From IMG/VR virus record IMGVR_UViG_3300005337_000001, positions 62,001-126,000 of that record: a DNA stretch of 64,000 nt. The stretch is one strand, 5' to 3'. How positions within the stretch are numbered: the first letter of the stretch is position 1; each line of letters opens with the position of its first letter. This document shows, piece by piece, positions 6,810 through 27,501 of this stretch. A program made the position numbers and the translations under genes. Below the pieces are notes generated by a model that saw nothing but the letters and a program-made list of their open reading frames with translations, was not told the origin of the DNA and ran no database searches. This stretch comes from a virus.

Positions 6810-8015
6810 TTACTTCGACTTCTCTTCGATTTTCAAGAAGGTTCCTGCAGCCTGCTTCAACTGCATGCTTTCCGTAGCATCAGCCGTCTTCTCCGATAGG
6901 TGCGCCAGGATGGAAGCCGCCCACCACTTGGTAAGCAGGGGCTCGCCGTCGCTGCCAACGCCGGCCGAGGGGAGCTCTTGGATACGCTCCTTCATCATAT
7001 TTTCCACCGTGCCCATGTCCTTCTTGGACAAGAACTTGCTGAGGTGCTGCTTCATGTCGACCCAAGGCACCTTCTCGTCATGCGCAGCAGCTATGGCGTC
7101 AAGCACCTTCTTCACCTGCTCGGGCTTCATGACCTCGCGCACCGCGCTGATCGTGGCGGCAGCCACAGCCTCGAGCTCCTTCTTTGCCACCAGCTCGTCG
7201 AGCACTAGGTCCGTGTCTTCGACAACGGAGCCAAGATGCATGCGGCTGAAAGCGTCGTCGGTGACGAGGTTGCCCATGCCGTTCAGGCGCAGCACCGTGT
7301 GGCTGATCTTGAGCTTGCCCTGACCGAAGTCGCTATTGCTCCACGCTGTGCCAAGCGCCACGAATTCACCGGGGATGGGCTCGAAGGCGTAGGGCATGTA
7401 GCACTGCAGGTGCACCCGCATGTCTGTGATGGTGGCCTTGGCCGGCTCCACACCCACCGACTTGATGGCGGCCAGGAACGGCTGGAGCATGACATTGCTC
7501 AAGAGGTGGCGGTTGTAGCTCTGCGTGAGCACGGCGCGCAGCTCATCGTTCACGATGCGGTGCAGGAACTCAGCCGGCTTCTTCAACCGATTGATAAACT
7601 TCTGGTGCGAGAAGAGCTCGTTCAGGTTCTCCGCCAGGAGGCTGCGCTTCCACGCACCTTCGCTAGCTTCATCCAACTTACCGGCGTACTGACGAGGCAT
7701 CCCACCGTAGTCACAAAGCTGGCCTAGGGCGTGCCTGTGGATGCGGAGCGCTTCATGCCGACCTCCTCCCAAGTCGTAGTCGATGACGAGGGGACCGTTC
7801 TTCACCTCTTCGGTGGTGTTCATCTTGTCGGTGAACGGCGTGTCGAAGTGCATCTTACTGGGCGGTACGTACCGATCGCGCGGGATGTTCTTCGCACAGT
7901 ATTCGATGAGGCGCGTCTGCTCGTTCGCCCCCACTCGGATGTAAGCAAGCACACGGTCACGTGCTGCTTTGGATGCAGCAGTGTCCTTCAAATCGTAGTC
8001 GGCGGCTGTGGGCAC
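6810..8015 (-). CDS. DUF932-like protein, 401 aa
   Basis: The start is a GTG at 8015 behind a strong AAAGGAG. The middle shows the order typical of DUF932 phage and plasmid proteins: a segment ELRAVLTQSYNRHLLSNV, a strand-rich part around ITDMRVHLQCYMPY, and GTAWSNSDFGQGKLKI followed by LRLNGMGNLVTDDAF. The biochemical role of DUF932 is not established; members occur near replication or early genes of phages and plasmids. The C-terminal third is helical. It directly follows the sigma-like gene, with a hairpin between them. Confidence 0.7.
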   Translation of the reverse strand: MPTAADYDLKDTAASKAARDRVLAYIRVGANEQTRLIEYCAKNIPRDRYVPPSKMHFDTPFTDKMNTTEEVKNGPLVIDYDLGGGRHEALRIHRHALGQLCDYGGMPRQYAGKLDEASEGAWKRSLLAENLNELFSHQKFINRLKKPAEFLHRIVNDELRAVLTQSYNRHLLSNVMLQPFLAAIKSVGVEPAKATITDMRVHLQCYMPYAFEPIPGEFVALGTAWSNSDFGQGKLKISHTVLRLNGMGNLVTDDAFSRMHLGSVVEDTDLVLDELVAKKELEAVAAATISAVREVMKPEQVKKVLDAIAAAHDEKVPWVDMKQHLSKFLSKKDMGTVENMMKERIQELPSAGVGSDGEPLLTKWWAASILAHLSEKTADATESMQLKQAAGTFLKIEEKSK

Positions 8016-8030: not shown

Positions 8031-8058
8031 ACGTAGGTCACCGCTTGCGCGGCTACGT
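8031..8058 (-). other. RNA hairpin between sigma-like and DUF932-like genes
   Basis: On the - strand ACGTAG pairs with CTACGT and CCGC with GCGG around a GCAA loop (GNRA type), with a 4-base bulge TGAC on one side. The hairpin starts at the sigma gene stop and ends 10 bases before the AAAGGAG of the next gene. No T-run follows, so it is not a terminator. It may be an RNA-processing or stability element. Confidence 0.5.
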
Positions 8059-8819
8059 CACATGTGTTTCTTGATTTTGGCTGCGATGGACGTCTTGAGC
8101 CGAGAGATCTTCGGCTGCGAATGTCCCAGCTGCGTAGCGAGTGTCGTCGTATCGGTGATGCGCTTCACCCCGTTGCCGTAAATGTGGTTGAACACCTGCG
8201 CCTCGTCGGGCGTCAGGTAGTCGTGTGGCGTGCGCTGCATGAGTCGGATGACGTCCGCCTCACGTGAAGTACCGAAGGCGCCTGGGTCCGTCTCGAACTT
8301 GCTGGACGGCACGTCGTTGCGCATCGCCTTCATCAAGCTCGTGACCTTGGCCGTAGGCATGTCCAGGCGCTCGCCGAGCTCGGCGTGCGTCGGGGCGCGC
8401 CCGAACTCCTCGGTCAGCTGGTTCTGCGCCTGCTGCAGCGGGCCAATGTTCTTGGCTTGTCCCTCGGGGATGTAGCCAACGTTCTGGTGCTTGGCGTTGA
8501 ATCGCTTGGCCTTTTGGATGCGGTTCTGCACGTGCGTGTTGAAAGCCACGCCGCGCTCGGGGTCGAATGTCTGCGCTGCACCGATAAAATGCTTCGTGAG
8601 CTCGGCCTTGAACGCAGCCGGTGCCACCGCCGGCGCGCGCCACTCCCGCTCCTTGCGGTTGATGAGCGGCTGATAGCGCTGCATCAATGGTTGCAGCAGC
8701 TCCGGCGTACGCCCGCCCTGATCCCAGGCATGCCAAAGCCGGAGGTCGCCTTCTGCCTTGTCGGCGGCAACCTTCGTCTTCAAGCTGAGGAAATCCTCAG
8801 CTGGATTCGTCTTGGGCAC
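8058..8819 (-). CDS. Phage RNA polymerase sigma factor (sigma-70 type)
   Basis: Residues 45-110 match sigma region 2 (HFIGAAQTFDPERGVAFNTH, then QNRIQKAKRF). Residues 120-165 match region 3 (IGPLQQAQNQLTEEFGRAPT, HAELGERLDM). Residues 200-250 match region 4 with a helix-turn-helix near the end (TTTLATQLGHSQPKISRLK). The start is GTG, 5 bases after the preceding stop. It would direct host RNA polymerase to phage promoters, probably late ones. Its target promoter cannot be assigned here. Confidence 0.82.
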   Translation of the reverse strand: MPKTNPAEDFLSLKTKVAADKAEGDLRLWHAWDQGGRTPELLQPLMQRYQPLINRKEREWRAPAVAPAAFKAELTKHFIGAAQTFDPERGVAFNTHVQNRIQKAKRFNAKHQNVGYIPEGQAKNIGPLQQAQNQLTEEFGRAPTHAELGERLDMPTAKVTSLMKAMRNDVPSSKFETDPGAFGTSREADVIRLMQRTPHDYLTPDEAQVFNHIYGNGVKRITDTTTLATQLGHSQPKISRLKTSIAAKIKKHM

Positions 8820-9301: not shown

Positions 9302-9339
9302 TGATTCCTCACTGTGAATGATACACCACCTTTTCGTAG

Positions 9340-9750
9340 TTACCCACCTGCCTTGCGCCTACGCTTATACTGCTCACGTTCGAGCGCATTATCTTCGAGG
9401 TCGTCTTCGATACTTTGTAGTAGCCCACGAAGCCGCGCGTTCTCTGTTTCTTTCTCGGCGTTGAGTGCTTCCAGCTGGGTGCAGCGGCGCTGCGCCTGCT
9501 GGAGCGTCTCCATGGTCCTGTCGAGCTCGGCGCCGATGGCGTCCACTATTTCCTCGGCGAGCTCCCCGAAGATCTTGAAGCCGTCGAGCTTCTTGACCGC
9601 TTCATCCCACATGCGTGGGTCGGTGAACTCGCAGCGCAGCTTGATGATGCCGTGCTGCGTACCAGCGACTGTTTTACCAGCCTTGGTGGCGTCTTCCACC
9701 CGCAGCTGCAGGCCCGGCATTTCCTTCTTTACGTCGGCAGTGGTTCCCAT
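9340..9750 (-). CDS. Coiled-coil protein, 136 aa
   Basis: Residues 1-60 are a small domain; residues 65-130 are a long, highly charged heptad-like helix (DRTMETLQQAQRRCTQLEAL, continuing to LERE) ending in a basic KRRRK. Its start overlaps the previous gene by 22 bases. No family is recognised. Confidence 0.5.
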   Translation of the reverse strand: MGTTADVKKEMPGLQLRVEDATKAGKTVAGTQHGIIKLRCEFTDPRMWDEAVKKLDGFKIFGELAEEIVDAIGAELDRTMETLQQAQRRCTQLEALNAEKETENARLRGLLQSIEDDLEDNALEREQYKRRRKAGG

Positions 9751-10319
9751 GCGCGTCGACCCATTCCTTCATTTTGTGCCAGCAGCTCCTCGGCGAAGCG
9801 CAGCATGTCTTCGATATGAAACTTCGAGACGTGCGCAGCAAGCGCCAATCGCTTGCCGACACGAGTCAAAGTCACCTCGGGATTTTTCAGAGACTGACGC
9901 AAGATGACGCACGCCTCACAGACCAGCTTGAAGAGCTCAGCGTTCTGATGATTTGTATCGTGCTTGATTTGCTCAACACCACGAGGACGTGACGCCAGGT
10001 AGTAGTACTCGGTCACCTCCGCCAGTAAGTCATCGCGCACCTCGTTGGCCTGCTCGAGCACATAGTTCAAGCCCTCGCGTGAGCGCTCCCAGGAAAGCCA
10101 CTTCAAAGTTTGCGGATCTTTCACGAAGCGCCACACCATGAGCTCGATGCTATAGAAAGCGCGTAGGTGCTGAACGCTACGAGAGCTGCCACCGTGAGCA
10201 GCACGCTCTCCCATCTCTTCAAGCGGCTCGAGCCACAGCTCGTTCTGCACCAACGTCAAATCGTAGAGGTTCCGCACGGTGTTGAGATACGCGCGCGTCA
10301 CCGGGCATGTAGTGTCCAT
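9729..10319 (-). CDS. Hypothetical helical protein, 196 aa
   Basis: It starts at the ATG at 10319 behind GGAGGTGATGC, a near-perfect ribosome binding site. The protein is mostly amphipathic helix (YNTVRNLYDLT-type segments, then LRAFYSIELMVWRFVKD). No motif or membrane segment is seen. A variant of the 20-base ATAAGA/TGAAGG motif (with TGGAGG) lies directly upstream at 10326-10345. Function unknown. Confidence 0.55.
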   Translation of the reverse strand: MDTTCPVTRAYLNTVRNLYDLTLVQNELWLEPLEEMGERAAHGGSSRSVQHLRAFYSIELMVWRFVKDPQTLKWLSWERSREGLNYVLEQANEVRDDLLAEVTEYYYLASRPRGVEQIKHDTNHQNAELFKLVCEACVILRQSLKNPEVTLTRVGKRLALAAHVSKFHIEDMLRFAEELLAQNEGMGRRAWEPLPT

Positions 10320-24260: not shown

Positions 24261-24280
24261 GGAGATAAGAATGATGAAGG
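24261..24280 (+). promoter_or_regulatory. 20-base motif copy 1 (ATAAGA-N4-TGAAGG)
   Basis: The sequence ggagATAAGAatgaTGAAGG is shared in register with 24874-24893 and 25881-25900. It lies 183 bases before the ATG at 24463. It may be a promoter element or a transcript-start element. Confidence 0.4.
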
Positions 24281-24462: not shown

Positions 24463-24900
24463 ATGCATCGAAACCAAACATCCATCATCTTCACGCCGGA
24501 CCAGCTGCTACGAGCCGTCAAAGGCTGGTGCTGGGACTGCGGCGAGAGAGTGCCTGACTACATCGTGCAGAAAGAGGTTTGGAATGCAGCCTGGCCCGGC
24601 GACGATCGAATGGGTACTAAACGTCTCAAGCGTCTGAAGCAAGCAGCGACCAGGGTCTTTCCTGAACGCGCTCGCTCCATCGACAGCAACCTCGTGCACG
24701 TTCACGTCCACCTGTGCTTCCCCTGCTTGGAGAAGAGGCTGGGCAGGAAACTAGTCATCACCGACTTCACCACCAAGACCAGAGCGGGGAAGATCGTCAA
24801 GGAGAACGCTGGGATCTTCCTCGGCTTCATGTTGGGGCAGAAGGTAGAGCGTGCGAAAAAAGGCGAGGAAACCGGGGATAAGAAAGATGAAGGAGGATAG
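24463..24900 (+). CDS. Small zinc-binding protein with two CxxC pairs, 145 aa
   Basis: The start was set at ATG 24463. C23-W-D-C26 and C85-F-P-C88 form a four-cysteine zinc site. The pattern HLCFPCLEKRLGRKLVITDF is familiar from unnamed phage and bacterial proteins. A helix-rich Lys tail follows. The last codons overlap the second 20-base motif copy and supply the ribosome binding site for the next frame. Function unknown; nucleic-acid contact is possible. Confidence 0.6.
   Translation: MHRNQTSIIFTPDQLLRAVKGWCWDCGERVPDYIVQKEVWNAAWPGDDRMGTKRLKRLKQAATRVFPERARSIDSNLVHVHVHLCFPCLEKRLGRKLVITDFTTKTRAGKIVKENAGIFLGFMLGQKVERAKKGEETGDKKDEGG
24874..24893 (+). promoter_or_regulatory. 20-base motif copy 2 (ATAAGA-N4-TGAAGG)
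   Basis: The sequence ggggATAAGAaagaTGAAGG lies at the end of the gene above and directly before AGGAGG and an ATG at 24903. Confidence 0.4.
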
Positions 24901-24902
24901 CA

Positions 24903-24938
24903 ATGTCCCAACAATCAGGTGAGCTGGCGCCGTGCTGA
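24903..24938 (+). CDS. Possible 11-residue leader peptide
   Basis: AAGGAGG sits 6 bases before this ATG, the best ribosome binding site in the area. The frame encodes MSQQSGELAPC and then stops, overlapping the GTG of the next frame. It may only serve to load ribosomes for the coupled gene at 24932. Confidence 0.25.
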   Translation: MSQQSGELAPC

Positions 24939-25045
24939 GCGTAGCCAGCCTCATCGCCGCCGAGTGGTTAGTTGAATTCGCCATCGGCTGGCACAACGGT
25001 TTCATGCGGAAGTACCGCCAAGCGCAAAAGGAAGGACGACTCTGA
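24932..25045 (+). CDS. Small membrane-associated protein candidate, 37 aa
   Basis: From a GTG start the frame encodes VLSVASLIAAEWLVEFAIGW and then a basic amphipathic tail (RKYRQAQKEGRL). It ends in TGATG, overlapping the ATG of the next gene, which supports its being real. The first 20 residues are hydrophobic and could sit in the membrane. Function unknown. Confidence 0.45.
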   Translation: MLSVASLIAAEWLVEFAIGWHNGFMRKYRQAQKEGRL

Positions 25046-25365
25046 TGCTGACCCCCGTACGTGAGATGGCTGAGCCGGAGCGTCGCCGCCACCAACAGAA
25101 CCTAGGCCTGGTCATTGTGACCCGGCGTTCCGATCCACCACTAACCGAGAAGAGAAAAAGAATGGACGAGACGGCACGACCCCAAACCCCTCGCGCTGGC
25201 ATGAGCCGCGCTGCCCAGACCCTCGAGCGAATGACGGAGACGCCGACCTTCAAAGAGGTCGCGCTCCACGAGCTCCAGCGCGCGTCGGTCTACGTGCCGA
25301 TGCTGTTTTCAGCAGGAATTGGGCTGCTTTGGCTCAACAAGCGCTTCTTCCTGAAGGTCATCTGA
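25045..25365 (+). CDS. Small protein with C-terminal membrane segment, 106 aa
   Basis: The start ATG overlaps the previous stop (TGATG); an alternative ATG at 25162 would give 67 residues. The N-terminal part is basic and polar; residues about 82-98 (VYVPMLFSAGIGLLWLN) form one membrane-spanning helix followed by KRFFLKVI. It is the last gene before the terminator at 25388. Function unknown. Confidence 0.5.
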   Translation: MLTPVREMAEPERRRHQQNLGLVIVTRRSDPPLTEKRKRMDETARPQTPRAGMSRAAQTLERMTETPTFKEVALHELQRASVYVPMLFSAGIGLLWLNKRFFLKVI

Positions 25366-25559: not shown

Positions 25560-25853
25560 ATGGCCAAGCAGACCTTCTTCCAGATGGGTATGAACCCGCT
25601 CGGAAATGCCGAGGTGATGCTGGACGTGTGCCGTAAAGAGTATGAGAAAGCTGGTCGCGCTGCGGATGTCGAGGAGCTCAAGAGCATCTCGGTCCGTAAC
25701 GCAGACGGCGCTCGTCTCGCGCTGCTCACCGTCTGGCACCTCCCGGAAGACATTCACGTCACCGACATCAAGCGCTACACCGTCGTAGCAATGCGCTTGG
25801 CGGTACGTGCGACCGATCGCCAGCGTGGTTCGCAGCTTCAGCTAGCCAGCTGA
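25560..25853 (+). CDS. Hypothetical protein, 97 aa
   Basis: The start was set at ATG 25560 behind AGGTG; upstream in-frame codons have no ribosome binding site. It is a compact acidic-to-basic alpha/beta protein (NAEVMLDVCRKEYEKAG, LALLTVWHLPEDIHVTDIKR) ending in a Gln/Arg-rich tail. It stands alone between a terminator and the structured leader at 25869, so it probably has its own promoter in 25420-25559. No family is recognised. Confidence 0.55.
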   Translation: MAKQTFFQMGMNPLGNAEVMLDVCRKEYEKAGRAADVEELKSISVRNADGARLALLTVWHLPEDIHVTDIKRYTVVAMRLAVRATDRQRGSQLQLAS

Positions 25854-25868
25854 CAGCAGCTGCAAAAC

Positions 25869-25929
25869 ACCTCCTTCGCACGGAATAAGAGAAGTGAAGG
25901 CACAGACGTGGGGTCTGTGCGAAGGAGGT
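25869..25929 (+). promoter_or_regulatory. Leader RNA that can sequester the ribosome binding site
   Basis: A perfect 13-base inverted repeat, ACCTCCTTCGCAC (25869-25881) and GTGCGAAGGAGGT (25917-25929), encloses the Shine-Dalgarno GGAGG (25924-25928) of the gene at 25935. A second hairpin, GCACAGAC (25900-25907) with GTCTGTGC (25913-25920), shares bases 25917-25920 with the long stem, so the two cannot fully coexist. This is the layout of a translational on/off switch. The signal is unknown. Confidence 0.65.
25881..25900 (+). promoter_or_regulatory. 20-base motif copy 3 (ATAAGA-N4-TGAAGG)
   Basis: The sequence cggaATAAGAgaagTGAAGG lies in the loop of the leader structure and its first and last bases touch the two stems. 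Confidence 0.4.
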
Positions 25930-25934
25930 TCCAC

Positions 25935-26546
25935 ATGTTGCTGTTCGAAGTACACGAAAGCGTGCGCCCAGGTTTCAACTTAGTCTTGGACGATGGTGAA
26001 GCAGGCGTGCCAATGGGCTACGACGACAAGGTCGGCGGTAAAACTTGGTTGCCGCTCGGCAACTCCGTCGAGCGGTGGCTGACTCATCCCGAAGATCAAC
26101 GGGAAGAGTTCAAGCTGCTGCACGCGCATCTCGAAGAGAAGAACATCGGCTTCTGCCTGACGGGGCAGACCGCCGAAGAAGCAGCGCTAGAAAAAAGAGC
26201 GCTGGTGTTGATCGACGGCTGTACCGATCCCGAGGTAGGCGTCACCATCATCGCAGAGGCTTTCGGAAAGACCATGCCGGAGCTGGTGACGCACACACAC
26301 GGCGATGGACATTCGAGGCAGCTCTACATCTTCAATCACGGCGACGCGCTGTTCATCAGCTGGTCTGCTGCGTCGTTGGAGGCGAGCCGCCCCAAACGTT
26401 TCATCGTTACCTGGGACGCGGAGAAGAAGCAGTTGTTGGAGACGTCCGTTGGCCGCCCGCGCCGGAACTCGAGGCCGACGAAGAAGCAGGAGAAGAAGCG
26501 CCAACAGCAGGCACCTGCGGTGGGTCAGGAGTTACGACCGGAATGA
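25935..26546 (+). CDS. Hypothetical protein under leader control, 203 aa
   Basis: The ATG at 25935 follows GGAGG by 6 bases. Residues 1-155 look like a folded domain (LLFEVHESVRPGFNLVLDDG, LVLIDGCTDPEVGVTIIAEA, HTHGDGHSRQLYIFNHGDA); the His-rich HTHGDGH could bind metal. The last 40 residues are Lys/Arg/Gln-rich and may bind nucleic acid. The end overlaps the convergent gene at 26407 by 140 bases. No family is recognised. Confidence 0.6.
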   Translation: MLLFEVHESVRPGFNLVLDDGEAGVPMGYDDKVGGKTWLPLGNSVERWLTHPEDQREEFKLLHAHLEEKNIGFCLTGQTAEEAALEKRALVLIDGCTDPEVGVTIIAEAFGKTMPELVTHTHGDGHSRQLYIFNHGDALFISWSAASLEASRPKRFIVTWDAEKKQLLETSVGRPRRNSRPTKKQEKKRQQQAPAVGQELRPE

Positions 26547-26820
26547 CAGGCGGGTCGGTGGACGAGGGCTTTCCCTTGTCTGCCGATTCCTCTTTTTTCT
26601 TAGCCCTGGGCGCGCGTGGCTTGGTGAAGTCCTTGGCGATCGACTTCAGCAGACTGGTCACGGTCTTGGTACACCCGTCACACAGGCAGCCGTACTTGGC
26701 TTCGAACTTTTCGCCTGCGAGCTCGGCCACCAACTCGAGCTTCACCTCGACTGCTTTGTCGGTATACCAAACGCGCGTACAGCGCTCACACGCGTTCTGA
26801 ACTACTGTCTTGCTCGGCAT
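26407..26820 (-). CDS. Zinc-ribbon protein, 137 aa
   Basis: The start was set at ATG 26820 behind GGAG. C-ERC near residue 10 and CLCDGC near 43 give a four-cysteine zinc ribbon within the first 50 residues. Then come a basic helix (KPRAPRAKKKEE) and a Pro/Ser/Ala-rich disordered tail. The tail region lies antisense to the end of the + gene at 25935. A possible nucleic-acid-binding protein; function unknown. Confidence 0.55.
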   Translation of the reverse strand: MPSKTVVQNACERCTRVWYTDKAVEVKLELVAELAGEKFEAKYGCLCDGCTKTVTSLLKSIAKDFTKPRAPRAKKKEESADKGKPSSTDPPVIPVVTPDPPQVPAVGASSPASSSASSSGAGGQRTSPTTASSPRPR

Positions 26821-27049: not shown

Positions 27050-27072
27050 AGACCCTGATGTACCATGCCTTC

Positions 27073-27501
27073 ATGCGTACTGTCACGGTGGACGACGCTG
27101 ATGAACTTGCCGAGCTGGACAAGCAGCTCTTCCCGAACAACTGCCTCAACGAGTTTACGTTGGCCAGGGAGATTGCCTTGGGCTCCGGCTGGTGCTTCGT
27201 CGAAGCCGGTGACATCGTCGCGTACATACTGTGCCGCGGAGACAGCTACCTCACCGACATTATGCGGCTCGGCGTGCTACCTGCGTACGAGGGGCGCGGC
27301 CTTGGTCGCTCGCTACTGCTGCGCGGCATGATGACGACGCCGCACACCATGCTCACGGTCGCCACTGACAACACCCGCGCCCTACGTCTCTACCACCACT
27401 TGGGCTTTGAGATCGTAGGGCGACTTCTCGGCGACAGCGCTTGGGTAATGGGCAAGGCCCAGCAGAACATGACCCGCTACTTCATCGGCTTGGACCGGTA
27501 G
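27073..27501 (+). CDS. GNAT-family N-acetyltransferase
   Basis: The core RLGVLPAYEGRGLGRSLL holds the acetyl-CoA binding motif (Q/R-x-x-G-x-G/A), followed by MLTVATDNTRALRLYHHLGF, the second half of the fold. The length is normal for the RimI-like group. The start at 27073 gives the usual N-terminus (MRTVTVDDADELAELDKQLF); ATG 27058 is an alternative. The substrate is unknown: a protein N-terminus, a polyamine or a drug. It is a lone + gene among - strand genes, and its end overlaps the next - gene by 25 bases. Confidence 0.85.
   Translation: MRTVTVDDADELAELDKQLFPNNCLNEFTLAREIALGSGWCFVEAGDIVAYILCRGDSYLTDIMRLGVLPAYEGRGLGRSLLLRGMMTTPHTMLTVATDNTRALRLYHHLGFEIVGRLLGDSAWVMGKAQQNMTRYFIGLDR

Follow-up and report, generated by a model that had tools for sequence, protein, structure and literature searches.

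The 203-aa gene considered here lies in a phage record of 195,580 bases (60.5% G+C), of which the window, i.e. the whole stretch of DNA that was analysed (64,000 nucleotides), corresponds to G000:C1:62001-126000. The features that surround the gene are as follows (positions are those of the window).

24873-24883, plus strand: putative promoter at the front of the operon (CGGGGATAAGA, a motif match), of the same class as the internal promoter listed below and the likely source of read-through mRNA
24932-25045, plus strand: small upstream gene, 37 aa, with one hydrophobic stretch (by eye), found in three of four relatives
25045-25365, plus strand: upstream co-directional gene, 106 aa, with a probable C-terminal membrane anchor (by eye), synteny kept
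25560-25853, plus strand: upstream co-directional gene, 97 aa, synteny kept in the relatives
25935-26546, plus strand: gene for the 203-aa protein, which has a basic C-terminal tail and four homologues
26552-26589, plus strand: terminator-like hairpin of 17 pairs with a T run, which would end the operon after the 203-aa gene

The start codon of the 203-aa gene (ATG at 25935) is backed by alignment of the homologues. Two of the small genes, of 37 and 106 aa (24932-25365), stand at the operon front; both are conserved and have hydrophobic stretches. Read-through into the 203-aa gene is plausible, since between the operon front and this gene no strong terminator was found, but one weak terminator-like site (25282-25303), whereas a strong terminator comes after the gene. 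Further downstream lies a GNAT acetyltransferase gene (27058-27501; Pfam E = 8e-10) that is kept in three relatives.

The 203-aa product had no relative in Pfam, PHROGs, NCBIfam or the PDB sequences, and its AlphaFold model (pLDDT 64) yielded nothing usable with Foldseek. Neither the locus nor the product matched anything by BLAST among 50,697 phage records, and a single-sequence search of IMG/VR with the product was also negative. Relatives were reached through the capsid protein, whose matches belong to a large group of uncultured phages. Four of these, of 186-190 kb, carry a gene for the 203-aa product, with 38-43% identity where the proteins align, and a later profile search with the product returned the same four. 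Synteny in the relatives extends to the three small upstream genes and to the flanking genes on the minus strand; a few of these went undetected in single relatives.

Immediately upstream of the 203-aa gene is a leader in which promoter-like elements and two hairpins are interleaved.

25854-25860, plus strand: 5' strand (CAGCAGC) of a flanking helix, pairing with GTTGCTG (25937-25943) across the start codon region in the minimum-energy fold
25862-25867, plus strand: GCAAAA, the -35-like box that belongs to the internal promoter; present in every one of the five leaders
25869-25884, plus strand: 5' arm of the outer, putatively locking stem, within the promoter spacer between -35 and -10
25881-25890, plus strand: -10-like element CGGAATAAGA (consensus TTCGGGnATAAGA), recognized by recurrence of the motif
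25895-25902, plus strand: predicted transcription start region, placed from the position of the -10 element
25900-25920, plus strand: inner 8-bp hairpin GCACAGAC-GTGGG-GTCTGTGC, perfectly paired, with compensatory changes in four relatives
25905-25915, plus strand: invariant GACGTGGGGTC, loop and closing pairs of the inner hairpin, identical in all five leaders and a candidate protein-binding operator
25914-25929, plus strand: 3' arm of the outer stem, holding the Shine-Dalgarno sequence (SD) AAGGAGGT (25922-25929)

An earlier note on this DNA had described a perfect 13-base inverted repeat that hides the ribosome-binding site (RBS) of the gene at 25935, together with an 8-bp hairpin sharing four bases with it, and both were recovered. 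The outer stem comprises 13 perfect base pairs (25869-25881/25917-25929), or 16 including one G-U pair (25869-25884/25914-25929), with AAGGAGGT inside it; the arms of the inner hairpin are 25900-25907 and 25913-25920, so that 25917-25920 are used by both helices. On thermodynamic folding, which had been proposed as a check, the leader proved far more stable than shuffled sequence (-40.8 versus -24.7 +/- 3.2 kcal/mol; z = -5.0; 0 of 200 shuffles as good). The upstream arm had also been held to copy the anti-SD of 16S rRNA. The sequence in question, ACCTCCTT, is indeed present, but the likeness is incidental, because any perfect complement of AAGGAGGT resembles the anti-SD and the arms of the relatives do not; the idea of the arm as an anti-SD mimic was rejected.

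The ATAAGA/TGAAGG motif that had been noticed in the loop is present at 25885-25900, and also at 24265 and 24878 (three found in the window versus 0.03 expected). It recurs genome-wide, chiefly as [T]CGGGnATAAGA, and most sites lie 20-55 bases before a start codon. Among 33 related phage records, 16 contain CGGGnATAAGA, with 52 occurrences in all, and the reversed control pattern has one match. Alignment of 53 sites, picked by the -10 element alone, revealed a -35 box of consensus GCAAA, with AA at positions -21/-20 counted from ATAAGA (1.5-1.7 bits), and a conserved TG at +10/+11 after ATAAGA, and the sequence between the two boxes is barely conserved. Since the -35 box was unselected, its presence at a fixed distance from the -10 element argues for a two-box promoter, GCAAA-N13-TTCGGGnATAAGA, of which there are about 55 sites in the phage group, mostly just 5' of start codons. 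The loop motif is best read as the -10 element of a promoter with its own -35 box, a reading that had been overlooked. Further sites of the class are found in the genome (G000) at 6951+, 6903-, 10960+, 12623+, 19934+, 23343-, 28422-, 37291-, 61011+ and 150990+, with 6903-/6951+ forming the one divergent pair, and in the window at 24265+, 24878+ and 10341-. None was seen beside the major capsid and tail sheath genes of the window, and so the class is apparently not late structural. A sigma70-type promoter was sought between 24000 and 26800 and none was found. In all four relatives a same-class promoter lies approximately 1 kb upstream, as the counterpart of the operon-front promoter. The leader promoter deviates from the consensus at CGGG, reading ACGGA in this phage, and may therefore be weak.

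A candidate reader of the GCAAA-N13-TTCGGGnATAAGA promoters, to judge from protein profiles, is encoded by the phage itself.

Genome 9314-9871 (L010:9314-9868), plus strand: FliA/WhiG-like sigma factor gene, identified by profile match

The best profile of this 185-aa sigma factor is FliA/WhiG (sigma28; E = 1.5e-34). The Escherichia coli sigma28 consensus is TAAAGTTT-n11-GCCGATAA (PMC2859248), and sigma28 (FliA/WhiG) promoters and the phage class are alike in having a -35 with AAA, a -10 with nGATAA and similar spacing (PMC2859248), although the phage class has CGGGnATAAGA in place of GCCGATAA; set against TAAA-n15-GCCGATAA, the phage promoters are similar but not identical. Across the relatives, presence of the sigma factor and presence of the motif do not match cleanly: this phage and G003 have a FliA-like sigma, as does G004 by family profile, and no clear copy was seen in G005 or G006, both of which have the motif. 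A second sigma-like protein is encoded in the window (8058-8819, minus strand; Sigma70 region 3, E = 1.3e-9), and several relatives have weak sigma-like matches in open frames of approximately 200-360 aa.

The internal promoter lies between the arms of the outer stem. With its -35 box at 25862 and its -10 at 25885, the 5' arm (25869-25884) is promoter spacer, and RNA from this promoter therefore cannot contain the arm. In this phage the computed cost of opening the RBS is 11.7-14.0 kcal/mol in upstream-started RNA versus 3.2 kcal/mol in promoter-started RNA, and in the relatives it is 20.1 versus 6.6, 16.6-18.5 versus 5.5, 12.5 versus 5.0 and approximately 17.8 versus 6.3 kcal/mol. By this computation upstream-started RNA would sequester the SD and/or AUG at 11.7-20 kcal/mol in five phages, and RNA from the predicted internal start would have an open RBS, the promoter-started costs (3.2-6.6 kcal/mol) assuming a start 5 nt after ATAAGA and reaching at most about 10 kcal/mol if the start is 3 nt earlier.

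Such a promoter-in-hairpin lock is documented for T4 and related phages (PMC3014915, PMC2988022). The T4 genes e (lysozyme), soc and 49 have a late promoter inside an RBS-sequestering hairpin, so that upstream-started mRNA hides the SD/AUG and the promoter, located in the DNA of the 5' strand, yields mRNA without that strand (PMC3014915). The genes for I-TevI, I-TevII, I-TevIII, segB and Aeh1 mobE have the same plan, each within a longer transcription unit (PMC2988022). The leader described here shares both the predicted closure of the RBS in upstream mRNA and the position of a promoter that would give armless mRNA (PMC3014915), as well as the placing of the gene in a longer transcription unit (PMC2988022), and we consider a transcript-start-dependent translational lock of the T4 gene e/I-TevI type to be its best explanation, and a probable one. 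Under this hypothesis, mRNA from the operon-front promoters (near 24878 and 24265) would carry the arm 25869-25884, which would pair with the SD region and close the RBS of the gene at 25935, leaving the last gene of the operon untranslated from the operon mRNA. Transcripts from the internal promoter, perhaps read by the FliA/WhiG-type sigma factor that the phage encodes, would begin near 25895-25902 without the arm and would fold the small inner hairpin alone, which should then lie close to the 5' end of the short mRNA, directly before the SD; their RBS would stay open. We infer the transcription start, the read-through and the difference in translation from the sequence.

There are differences from the T4 genes. 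The phage group is unrelated, and its promoter is GCAAA-N13-TTCGGGnATAAGA whereas that of T4 is TATAAATA; instead of the TATAAATA -10 element without a -35 that marks a T4 late promoter (gp55), we find CGGGnATAAGA with a clear -35. An inner hairpin with an invariant 11-mer is present in addition. The upstream promoters are here of the same class as the internal one, so the clean early/late timing of T4 cannot be read across; because the visible upstream promoters share the class of the internal promoter, the control may be one in which only the gene's own promoter counts rather than one of early off, late on. Unlike I-TevI and its group, the 203-aa product has no detected homing endonuclease domain, and, with the same synteny in all five phages, nothing points to a mobile gene.

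The earlier note had suggested a search for covariation in relatives, and had held that loss of the two stems in phages that keep the open reading frame would count against the leader. The outcome favours the leader: all five phages with the gene keep the layout of -35, -10 motif at -47 to -50 from the ATG, inner hairpin and RBS-closing upstream arm. The outer arms differ in sequence among the phages, yet each closes its own RBS, and in G003-G006 it is the end of the SD and the AUG that the outer stem spans, not the SD in full. Arm-swap energies were used for this comparison instead of a pair count from the MAFFT alignment, which misplaces gaps in the inner stem. The native combination of arms and RBSs in the five leaders is the best of 120 permutations, and the upstream DNA of 51 other promoters never matches the native RBS closure of any of the five phages. 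Shuffled arms equalled the native one in 0, 0, 4, 4 and 1 of 200 cases; G004 and G005, with 4 of 200, have a modest outer stem, and in G004 the RBS is closed equally well by the G003 arm and by its own. When the 42 class promoters with an SD were ranked by arm-specific closure, the leaders, five being the number on which the conservation analysis rests, took ranks 1-5 (z = 6.5, 5.3, 4.3, 3.6 and 3.1), an ordering with a chance of approximately 1 in 850,000 by a combinatorial estimate that treats the sites as independent. Broader scans for the leader pattern gave L171 (viral) and 11 genome matches, which were without the gene or its neighbours and were taken as chance. An inverted repeat running from promoter spacer to SD could also be a DNA-level operator, a repressor or activator site over the promoter, with RNA folding as a by-product, and I-TevI has such an operator over its promoter (PMC2988022). 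A protein site would be expected to keep its sequence, however, whereas here the sequence changes and the pairing is kept, and we regard this explanation as improbable.

The two helices had been thought to exclude each other in part. This holds for the present phage, the only one with four bases claimed by both; in each of its four relatives, outer and inner helix are stacked and compatible. The suggestion of a translational switch outside the known riboswitch classes is borne out in part, inasmuch as the RBS-hiding leader is conserved in four relatives, but what is conserved is not a two-state riboswitch, because both helices coexist in the relatives. A metabolite riboswitch or RNA thermometer toggling two exclusive folds would fit the partly exclusive helices of this phage and the Rfam result for the window, where nothing reached gathering level and the best permissive match (E = 0.16) was far below the cut-off. 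Such a device is nevertheless very improbable, given that the exclusion is not conserved, that there is no aptamer-like conserved core beyond one small hairpin, and that a promoter sits between the arms.

The inner hairpin is conserved in a different manner. Its arms still pair although as many as 10 of their 11 bases differ between phages (native mean -15.5 versus swapped -8.2 kcal/mol, best of 120), and on top of these compensatorily changed stems the 11-mer GACGUGGGGUC is invariant, 19-20 nt from the AUG. Each of the five genomes has a single copy of the top, GACGTGGGGTC, and eight relatives without the gene have none. By analogy, an invariant hairpin top beside the SD suggests a second layer of control. 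In T4 and RB69, gp43 binds a hairpin on the gene 43 leader as a translational repressor (PMC3014915), and the present hairpin resembles that operator in its conserved top, its proximity to the RBS and the identity of the top between relatives on stems of differing length (PMC3014915); it differs in loop sequence and gene, and is a candidate operator. The leader might accordingly be mainly an operator, at which the GACGUGGGGUC hairpin beside the SD is recognized by a repressor, be it the 203-aa product itself or some other protein of the phage, and the outer stem merely modulates. The fixed distance from the AUG, the constancy of the 11-mer above a compensating stem, its restriction to the 203-aa gene, the basic tail of the product and the T4/RB69 precedent of identical tops on unequal stems (PMC3014915) all speak for this reading, to which we would give somewhat less than an even chance: no RNA-binding domain or fold was recognized in the product, and co-variation of the spacer arm with the RBS is left unexplained.

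A short hairpin between promoter and SD is also seen at other long-leader sites of the class (6951+, 28422- and 150990+ in the genome; L110, L112 and L130), without the invariant top. It could be argued from the first three of these, and from the fact that every visible upstream promoter is of the same class, that the inner hairpin is a mere 5' stabilizing stem-loop and that the outer pairing insulates the gene from read-through noise, with no regulated switch. We think this rather unlikely, as those other hairpins are without the 11-mer and none of the arms upstream of them closes the RBS.

The preferred reading, then, is the transcript-start-dependent lock, and to it we would add, with lower confidence, a second layer in which the GACGUGGGGUC hairpin would bind a protein, which might be the basic-tailed 203-aa product itself. 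The fuller proposal, of a two-layer RNA control not described before, in which a promoter-in-hairpin lock is combined with a nested, invariant GACGUGGGGUC hairpin as a new protein or ligand recognition element, in a phage group with a sigma28-like promoter regulon and its own FliA/WhiG-type sigma factor, is put forward tentatively, as a possibility that we would not yet bet on. That a lock should be kept by compensatory change in a distant group with another promoter class suggests repeated evolution of this means of silencing one gene of an operon. The analysis also offers a new RNA hairpin that can be tested, the one with the invariant GACGUGGGGUC, as well as a consensus for promoters in uncultured phages of approximately 190 kb, with which part of their transcription programme becomes readable from sequence.
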